DNA of 64,000 nt from Veillonellales bacterium (lineage in GTDB: Bacteria > Bacillota > Negativicutes > JAAYSF01): assembly GCA_039680175.1 (NCBI GenBank), contig JBDKTO010000011.1:1-64000 (forward strand), given 5' to 3'. Of the stretch, positions 34,534 to 39,797 are shown piece after piece. Made by a program: the position numbers and the translations under genes. The first letter of the stretch is position 1. Each line of letters starts with the position of its first letter. The notes beneath the pieces were generated by a model, which worked only from the letters and a program-made list of their open reading frames with translations, had not been told where the DNA came from and made no database searches.

Positions 34534-34699
34534 TGCAATCATCTCCCACTTGATAGGATTTAATGATAACTTCGACCTGCTGCAATGGAATTCCTGTTCC
34601 CAATTTAGGATTACCGACAGGTAGAATTCTGCAAAGGATTATCAAACTCCGGAAAGAACTTTCATAATAGATATCAACAAAATGAAACAGGAGGCAGTT

Positions 34700-35521
34700 A
34701 TGAATAAATGGATTCTTTATACCCTTACGATAATCCTATTATGCGGCAGTAACCTGTACCTTCCCGGTCAGGCCCAGGCTTCGTCTTTTTGGAGCATTGG
34801 CTCCACCGGCTATGAAGTTACCATCATCCAGCAAAAGCTGGCGGAAGCTGGATTTTACAAAGGTCCGGTCACTGGAATATTTGATGCCATTACCAGTAAT
34901 GCGGTTAAAGCCTTTGAAAAATCATCCGGGGTTATTGCGGACGGCATTGTCACCACGGCCATTCTTGATCTGATTAACAATAACACCGAAGAAATATATA
35001 TCGTTCATCCCGGCGACACTGCCTATACAATTGCCGAGCGGCTGGACATGACCGCCTATGACATTCTTCGTGATAACGACCTGGAAAATCCCCATGCTCT
35101 ATTAAACCCAGGAACAGTTTTGCACCTGAAACGCTCGGCGACAGGAACAAGCGGAACCGGCTCTGCCCTAATTAACTTTGCCAGCAACTTTATTGGAACC
35201 CCATATGTGTGGGCCGGAAACAGTCCTGGTGGATTCGACTGTTCCGGCTTTATCTACTATATCTTCATTGAACACGGGGTTTCCCTCCCCCGCATGGCTG
35301 ACGCACAATTTAATGAAGGCGCCTCTGTTGAAAAGGCAGCGCTTCTGCCTGGTGACCTTGTGTTTTTTGAAACCTATGAACCCGGACCATCGCATGTGGG
35401 CATTTATCTGGGCGATGATAAATTCATCCATGCCAGTTCCGCCGCCGGACAAGTAATTATTTCCGATCTCAACAAACCCTATTATGCCATGACCTACCTA
35501 GGAGCGAGAAGAGTACTGTAA
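34700..35521 (+). CDS. Secreted NlpC/P60 endopeptidase with PG-binding and LysM domains
   Basis: A 273-residue cell-wall hydrolase. After a signal peptide (about 1-26, ending QAQA) come a PG_binding_1 domain (GSTGYEVTIIQQKLAEAGFYKG and FDAITSNAVKAFEKSSG), a LysM domain (YIVHPGDTAYTIAERLDM), then a C-terminal NlpC/P60 domain with the Cys in FDCSGF, the His in PSHVGIY and a third polar residue in FIHASS. It cuts stem peptides of peptidoglycan, in growth, division or spore development. The ATG at 34700 follows ACAGGAGG; an upstream in-frame ATG (34682) has no site. Confidence 0.93.
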   Translation: MNKWILYTLTIILLCGSNLYLPGQAQASSFWSIGSTGYEVTIIQQKLAEAGFYKGPVTGIFDAITSNAVKAFEKSSGVIADGIVTTAILDLINNNTEEIYIVHPGDTAYTIAERLDMTAYDILRDNDLENPHALLNPGTVLHLKRSATGTSGTGSALINFASNFIGTPYVWAGNSPGGFDCSGFIYYIFIEHGVSLPRMADAQFNEGASVEKAALLPGDLVFFETYEPGPSHVGIYLGDDKFIHASSAAGQVIISDLNKPYYAMTYLGARRVL

Positions 35522-35631
35522 ATCATTGTTGTCATCTATTTCAACCTGATGTAAAAATTTGCTAACATATTGCTTGCCGATAAAGTCAAGAATAAGATTG
35601 TTCCCAATATACGCTGCAAAGGAGGAACCTT

Positions 35632-35916
35632 ATGACAACTGCAAATAAAAATCAGTCCAGTAAAAAGCAAAGTACTATGACCGCGCAATTTGATGCCAAC
35701 AATGATTACTCCCAATCAACTCAAGCCCAGGCAGCCAGCCAAAACCAGCAGCAAACAAGCAAATCCCAGTTTGGCACATTAACTGCTGCGGCCGATGCCA
35801 ACAATGACTATTCCAGCTCTACCCAGAATCAGTCCGGCAGTAAAAATCAACAAAACAAAAATCAGCAGGGAACGGCAACAACTAAAAAAGACGCCAATAA
35901 CGATTATTCCAACTAA
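35632..35916 (+). CDS. Unrecognised DANNDYS-repeat protein
   Basis: A 94-residue protein of very low complexity, rich in Asn, Gln, Ser, Thr and Lys, with no hydrophobic core. The heptad DANNDYS occurs three times (about residues 21-27, 54-60 and 87-93), each after a basic or alanine-rich stretch, with a spacing of about 33 residues. It is likely intrinsically disordered. The ATG at 35632 follows CAAAGGAGG. I recognise no family. The strong ribosome site, neighbouring NlpC/P60 hydrolase and own terminator make expression likely, perhaps in the spore or the cell envelope, but that is a guess. Confidence 0.7.
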   Translation: MTTANKNQSSKKQSTMTAQFDANNDYSQSTQAQAASQNQQQTSKSQFGTLTAAADANNDYSSSTQNQSGSKNQQNKNQQGTATTKKDANNDYSN

Positions 35917-35937: not shown

Positions 35938-35965
35938 AAAAAGGAGCCATTTCGGCTCCTTTTTT
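35938..35965 (+). terminator. Terminator after the DANNDYS gene
   Basis: AAAAAGGAGCC pairs with GGCTCCTTTTT around ATTTC, followed by a T-run. Confidence 0.92.
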
Positions 35966-35980
35966 AAATCATAATCGGCG

Positions 35981-36012
35981 TAAAAAAGAACCGCAAATGC
36001 GGTTCTTTTTTA
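35981..36012 (-). terminator. Terminator of the rubredoxin gene
   Basis: TAAAAAAGAACCGC pairs with GCGGTTCTTTTTTA around AAAT. It touches the rubredoxin stop codon and is symmetrical, so it works for both strands. Confidence 0.92.
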
Positions 36013-36168
36013 GCTCTTTTCAAATTCATCCTTACCGACACCACATTCGGGGCAGGTCCAATCTGCCGGAAGTTCTTCAAATTTAGTACCGGCTGCAATA
36101 CCGTGCTCGGAATCACCCGCCGCCTCATCATAGACATACCCACAAATTGAACAAGACCATTTCGCCAA
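36010..36168 (-). CDS. Rubredoxin (TTG start)
   Basis: A 52-residue iron protein that passes single electrons, for example to desulfoferrodoxin and rubrerythrin. The two CxxC pairs are [14 protein letters not shown] (residues 6 and 9) and [13 protein letters not shown] (residues 39 and 42), with [11 protein letters not shown] between, as in standard rubredoxins. The start is TTG at 36168, behind GGGAGGAC; there is no ATG in frame before the first CxxC. It lies 2.7 kb from the desulfoferrodoxin-rubrerythrin pair. Length and motifs match the family exactly. Confidence 0.95.
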
Positions 36169-38859: not shown

Positions 38860-39240
38860 ATGAAGGGAAACGTCACTTTTTTCCGCTGCAGCATTTGCGG
38901 CAATCTTGTTGGACTAATCAAGCAGGGACGCGGACAACTTGTCTGTTGTGGAAAACCCATGGAAGAACTGGAAGCCAATACAACCGATGCAGCTGTTGAA
39001 AAGCATGTTCCTGTCGTTGAACGTAAGAATGGAAAACTGGTTGTCAAAGTTGGTTCCGTTACCCATCCCATGACACCGGAACACAGCATCGAATGGATCG
39101 CCGTCACCGATGGTCACAGCACCCAGCGAACATCCCTTTCTCCGTCGGACAAGCCTGAAGCCGTTTTCTGTGACAGGGAGAATGCCGAAATTTACGCTTA
39201 TTGCAATCTTCACGGGCTTTGGAAAGCCGAGATCAATTAA
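38860..39240 (+). CDS. dfx: Desulfoferrodoxin (superoxide reductase)
   Basis: A 126-residue two-iron protein that reduces superoxide to hydrogen peroxide without making oxygen. The N-terminal desulforedoxin-like centre has FRCSICGN and VCCGKPM (four Cys, Fe-Cys4). The C-terminal catalytic centre has EKHVPVV, HPMTPEHSIEWI and YCNLHGLW, the His4-Cys1 ligands. The ATG at 38860 follows AAAAGGGAGG. It is cotranscribed with rubrerythrin 21 bases downstream and probably receives electrons from rubredoxin encoded at 36168. Confidence 0.97.
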   Translation: MKGNVTFFRCSICGNLVGLIKQGRGQLVCCGKPMEELEANTTDAAVEKHVPVVERKNGKLVVKVGSVTHPMTPEHSIEWIAVTDGHSTQRTSLSPSDKPEAVFCDRENAEIYAYCNLHGLWKAEIN

Positions 39241-39260: not shown

Positions 39261-39797
39261 ATGAGTATTAAAGGTACAAAAACCGAAGCCAACCTTTTGG
39301 CAGCCTTTGCCGGAGAATCACAAGCGCGAAATAAATATACCTATTATGCATCTCAGGCCCGAAAAGAAGGGCTTCAACAAATAGCCGACTTTTTTGAAGA
39401 GACTGCCGGCAATGAAAAAGAGCATGCCAAAATCTGGTTTAAACTGCTGCATGACGGTATGCCTGATACCGAAAAAAATCTGGTTGATGCCGCAGCGGGA
39501 GAGCATTACGAATGGACCGACATGTATGCCGGGTTTGCCAAAACCGCCAAAGAAGAAGGCTTTGATAAAATTGCCTTTCTTTTTCAAGCGGTAGCGGCCA
39601 TTGAAAAAGAACATGAAGAAAGATACCAAAAGCTTTTTGACAATCTAAAAAGCGGTGCTGTCTTCAAACGGGAAGAAAAACAGATCTGGATCTGCGCCAA
39701 TTGCGGCCATATTCACTACGGAACGGAGGCTCCGGAAAAATGCCCGGTTTGTGATCATCCCAAAGCGTTTTTTGAAATTAAGGCTGCCAACTATTAA
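39261..39797 (+). CDS. rbr: Rubrerythrin
   Basis: A 178-residue NADH/rubredoxin-linked peroxidase that removes hydrogen peroxide. The N-terminal four-helix bundle carries the diiron ligands [35 protein letters not shown] and [11 protein letters not shown]. The C-terminal rubredoxin domain has [11 protein letters not shown] and [12 protein letters not shown]. Together with desulfoferrodoxin it forms the superoxide-to-peroxide-to-water path. The ATG at 39261 has GACGTGA upstream (weak). A strong hairpin terminator follows. Confidence 0.97.

Follow-up and report, generated by a model that had tools for sequence, protein, structure and literature searches.

The repeat gene and its surroundings

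The window analyzed here, a stretch of 64,000 nucleotides from a Veillonellales bacterium, contains a small gene on the forward strand that encodes a protein of 94 amino acids rich in Gln, Asn, Ser, and Thr. The preliminary description of this DNA had given its coordinates and composition correctly. The features of the locus are as follows:

35618 to 35625, + strand: ribosome binding site AAAGGAGG, 6 nt 5' of the ATG (from the sequence)
35632 to 35916, + strand: gene of a probably SASP-like repeat protein (SASP, small acid-soluble spore protein), 94 aa, ATG start, TAA stop at 35914 to 35916 (from open reading frame and homologues)
35659 to 35712, + strand: repeat unit 1, SKKQSTMTAQFDANNDYS; an alpha/beta-type SASP of the same genome has the identical TMTAQFDANN in its tail
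35758 to 35814, + strand: repeat unit 2, SKSQFGTLTAAADANNDYS, the most canonical of the three copies
35854 to 35910, + strand: repeat unit 3, NKNQQGTATTKKDANNDYS, degenerate in its first half
35938 to 35964, + strand: intrinsic terminator, 11-bp stem followed by a T-run
35981 to 36012, no strand assigned: second hairpin, 14-bp stem with A/T ends

The strong ribosome site and the terminator of its own that had been attributed to the gene were both confirmed. Such a ribosome site precedes the homologous genes too, and the pair of strong hairpins 3' of the stop codon reached a z score of -8.1. The second of these may serve the repeat gene, the convergent rubredoxin gene, or both. Immediately 5' of the repeat gene, the product of 34682 to 35521 (+) reads as a protein with peptidoglycan-binding, LysM, and NlpC/P60 parts and is a possible spore or cell wall hydrolase. 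Genes that, by sequence reading only, encode rubredoxin (36010 to 36168, -), a desulfoferrodoxin-like protein (38860 to 39240, +), and a rubrerythrin-like protein (39261 to 39797, +) lie near one another and read as an oxidative-stress set typical of anaerobes. The neighborhood of the repeat gene is not conserved. Common neighbors were found only in local clusters within subgroups, and neither the NlpC/P60 hydrolase nor the rubredoxin of the window was found beside the repeat gene in relatives.

The protein had been described as carrying three copies of DANNDYS at a 33-residue spacing. Three copies are present, starting at residues 21, 55, and 87, but the spacing is 34 and then 32 residues instead of a constant 33. 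Of 20,000 shuffled versions of this sequence, just 8 contained any 5-mer in triplicate, and just 20 contained even a duplicated 7-mer. At the DNA level, the three copies differ exclusively at synonymous third positions (GAT/GAC, AAC/AAT, and TAC/TAT), which argues for selection on the peptide and against a recent duplication of the DNA. The heptad is only part of the functional repeat: DANNDYS closes a unit of 18 residues, SKxx[YF]GT[LM]TAxxDANN[DE]Y. Units 1 and 3 of the window protein are missing part of the first half, making it a somewhat eroded member of its family. No signal peptide was found in the repeat protein. AlphaFold2 returned no structure for it (mean pLDDT of 51), as is expected of the disordered chain that had been proposed.

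Family members and their occurrence with sporulation

A single-sequence search retrieved homologues from 36 of 100 relatives. When a family profile of 15 rows (A1) was searched against 200 Negativicutes genomes, the family was present in 50, and homologues with a repeated unit of the DANNDYS type are thus found in relatives, in about a quarter of this class sample (about 50 of 200). Members range from 55 to about 170 aa and consist of a short Lys/Asn/Gln-rich head followed by one to five units of the form SKxx[YF]GT[LM]TAxxDANN[DE]Y[ST]SS, which are separated by variable linkers of Ser, Thr, Asn, Gln, Ala, and Gly. Their composition is rich in Ser, Ala, Asn, Thr, Gln, and Lys, with essentially no Trp or Cys and a GRAVY of about -1 to -1.8. 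In a comparison of 81 to 83 units, next to no variation was seen at the second T of GT[LM]T or at the D and N of DAN, even though all synonymous codons for these residues are in use. Scans of the window protein and six homologues against Pfam and NCBIfam yielded sub-threshold noise only, in line with the earlier statement that no known family contains it. A PDB search with the family profile gave no match, and nothing useful was found in the literature on SASPs of Sporomusa or Pelosinus.

GPR is the spore germination protease. Using PF03418, it was detected in 53 of the same 200 class genomes. Family and GPR occurred together in 49 genomes, GPR alone in 4, the family alone in 1, and neither in 146 (Fisher P of about 1e-40, with counts uncorrected for phylogeny). 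The corresponding comparison at the genus level gave 27/2/0/53 (P of about 1e-19, likewise uncorrected for phylogeny). Two of the four genomes with GPR only (G008, G020, G044, and G098) are less than 90% complete, and the other two belong to genera in which the family occurs elsewhere. The single genome with a family member and no GPR, G134, is 87% complete. With 49 of 50 family-positive genomes also positive for GPR, the family is restricted to spore formers, as are gamma-type SASPs, and the link to spores that the preliminary description had suggested is upheld. Outside the class, the picture was different: in a phylum-wide sample of 299 genomes, 248 of which contain GPR, the window's genome was the only positive one. 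The family was absent from all 247 GPR-positive genomes of other classes and is therefore specific to Negativicutes instead of being a general spore protein; as far as sampled, it is confined to this class. The repeat proteins form a genuine family of spore proteins, one that is peculiar to this lineage and previously undescribed. As a side observation, the GPR-positive genome G020 (L099), which has no repeat protein, yielded only weak, long SspF-like SASP matches and no standard short alpha/beta-type SASP; its spore core set is apparently different.

The unit as a tail on alpha/beta-type SASPs, and promoters

Alpha/beta-type SASPs coat DNA in the spore core. Weak secondary matches of the profile fell within genes of this type, where the unit forms a C-terminal tail behind a Ser/Thr/Gly/Ala linker. 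The SASP L101 of the window's own genome ends in ...ASGTTTGTMTAQFDANNRP and has the exact 10-mer TMTAQFDANN in common with unit 1 of the window protein, whereas the string shared by the two proteins never exceeded 8 letters in 20,000 shuffles. Tails that match the unit strictly were present in 22 of 62 SASP genes and in 20 of the 30 SASP-bearing genomes (22 of 30 on looser criteria). Seventeen of 60 SASPs scored higher with a unit HMM than the best of 1,800 shuffled controls, and a profile-profile comparison of the family with the SASP tails gave an E value of 3e-5. The tail occurs on two distinct SASP paralogue types, the second of which is represented by L074, L126, and L132. In the form [GS]T[LM]TAxxDAN, it is seen on L101, L102, L103, L109, L113, L121, L122, L125, L127, L130, L136, and others.

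The tailed Negativicutes SASPs (PF00269) resemble the repeat protein family in the unit, [GS]T[LM]TA[QK][FY]DANN, and in a forespore-type promoter. They differ in that their tail is a single unit, follows the DNA-binding domain, and ends in [RKQ][PAS], whereas units of the repeat protein end in [DE]Y. The DNA-binding domain itself (PF00269) was not found in the repeat protein, and only the C-terminal tail unit is common to both. The SASP segment KGALTSADNGR was considered as a source of the unit and rejected, since the resemblance, visible by eye, was not significant.

Promoters were sought by an unsupervised, two-block de novo motif search in which the ribosome site was masked, because the unmasked search returned nothing else. 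It identified GTATT-N16-17-[GA]ATA[AC]TA upstream of family genes and GCATA-N18-GATA[AC]TA upstream of SASP genes, both of which resemble the sigma-F/sigma-G consensus elements of Bacillus. A matrix trained on the SASP genes scored the upstream regions of the family 14.8 standard deviations above shuffles, and a forespore-type promoter precedes most homologues. Upstream of the window gene, the same matrix found no recognizable promoter copy (P = 0.485). The sequence GTATA-N17-AAAACTA is present in the near relatives of this gene, L002 and L003. Forespore transcription of the window gene is therefore inferred from the family. Given this and the degenerate units 1 and 3, the window copy may be less typical of the family. 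The tailless SASP paralogues L078, L083, L105, L114, L123, L124, L131, and L134 have GTAT[TG]-N18-CAAATTA in place of the GCATA-N18-GATA[AC]TA of the tailed ones, which suggests different timing or a different sigma factor.

Proposed role in the spore core

Gamma-type SASPs have been reported almost only from Bacilli and are reportedly absent from clostridia (PMC3533761, PMC8452069); they are thought to be an amino acid reservoir for outgrowth (PMC8452069). Their Pfam family, PF04259, exceeded the cutoff in none of 60 Negativicutes genomes, with a positive B. subtilis control, and the repeat protein did not match at the curated cutoff. Like SspE, the repeat protein is small, rich in Gln, Asn, Ser, and Ala, disordered, and devoid of Trp and Cys. 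Both have units beginning with [YF]GT and a strong ribosome site, and both occur with sporulation. It differs from SspE in the absence of a Pfam match and of a GPR site, in having up to five units, and in its occurrence in Negativicutes. Homology to SspE could not be demonstrated: QFGTEFASET and QFGTLTATSD look alike by eye, but the profile comparison (hhalign) was not significant, with an E value of 0.56 over four columns and only two gamma sequences on the SspE side. A GPR site of the form ExAx[E/D] (E[FIL]AxE type) was found in no family member, and GPR cleavage is therefore not predicted. The similarity to gamma-type SASPs derives from composition, disorder, restriction to sporulation, and the forespore-type promoters of most homologues. 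In our reading, the repeat protein would function in the manner of gamma-type SASPs, although no significant similarity to their sequences was detected and canonical GPR sites are absent. Hydrophilins and LEA-like protectants share its extreme hydrophilicity and disorder but not its strictly conserved unit or its restriction to sporulation (LEA proteins were compared via Pfam only, with no significant match).

The repeat protein is probably a SASP-like protein of the forespore and core, as supported by co-occurrence with GPR, the unit common to SASP tails, the forespore-type promoters of homologues, and a composition of the disordered type. It would be a small, Negativicutes-specific core protein that the forespore synthesizes during late sporulation and that builds up beside SASP-coated DNA. 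There it would serve in bulk as a readily degraded store of amino acids and as a polymer that packs the core, like the gamma-type SASPs of Bacilli, and would be degraded at germination. Storage may be its main role, at slightly less than even odds.

As it is common to SASP tails, the unit [YF]GT[LM]TAxxDANN[DE]Y is probably a recognition element, which would bring the repeat protein and the tailed SASPs to the same partner or protease. The unit is sharply conserved and also tags SASPs, most of which have GPR sites already; this suggests a recognition role in addition to storage. The unit could, tentatively, be a docking element: a binding tag by which the multi-unit protein would tie SASP-coated DNA, or further components of the core, into a cross-linked matrix, with storage as a secondary function, and by which the single tail would join SASPs to the same partner. 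In favor of docking, the unit is highly conserved between freely varying linkers (in 81 units, T, D, and N are invariant or near-invariant with all their synonymous codons in use), and a unit so conserved would be superfluous in a pure storage protein. Its position, single and at the extreme C terminus of two SASP paralogue types, also favors docking, as does the GWSTMTSADC-type SASP, in which a GPR site (E[VI]A[SN]E) is already present and an extra cleavage signal would be unnecessary. On the other hand, the partner is only putative, the [DE]Y end is absent from SASP tails, and the SASPs of G003, G006, G018, G019, and G032 are tailless despite the presence of the multi-unit protein. The last unit of that protein is itself tail-like (e.g., DANGKA and DANQKP) in at least four of these five genomes (G006, G018, G019, and G032). 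Storage, docking, and a core SASP-like role are compatible with one another. The further proposal that the unit is a modular core docking tag, and the multi-unit protein a multivalent linker organizing the core of diderm spore formers, is rather unlikely.

It is similarly doubtful that the unit is a processing site, recognized in a storage protein by a germination protease (modified GPR, YyaC, or another). Gamma-type SASPs do have their GPR site within the repeat (QFGTEFASETD in L151, compared with QFGTLTATSDANND here), and acidic residues surround small ones in the unit. However, ExAx[E/D] is missing from every member, most tailed alpha/beta-type SASPs already contain E[VI]A[SN]E, and the SspE alignment lacks significance.

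The preliminary description had suggested that the repeats may be interaction or nucleation modules, for example on a spore or cell surface layer. Coats often contain disordered repeat proteins, and the sporulation link is real, but nucleation at the coat, exosporium, or cell surface is highly improbable: the absence of a signal peptide, the sigma-F/sigma-G-like promoters of homologues, and the fusion of the unit to DNA-binding core SASPs contradict it and point to the core. Least probable of all is calcium handling in the core by a degenerate EF-hand-like site (DxNx[DE]), since the conserved heptad positions 1, 3, and 5 (D, N, and [DE]) come without the glycine and the position 12 acid of the EF-hand/dockerin loop (DxDxDG), which the unit statistics do not match, and position 5 is not retained in the tails of SASPs (DANNRP and DINS).

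If the proposed core role is correct, a reserve or packing protein of the spore core was invented, or remodeled beyond recognition, a second time in the diderm Negativicutes. The fusion of the unit to SASPs offers a concrete handle on other contents of the spore core, and the family provides a sequence marker by which spore-forming and asporogenous Negativicutes can be told apart in metagenomes.
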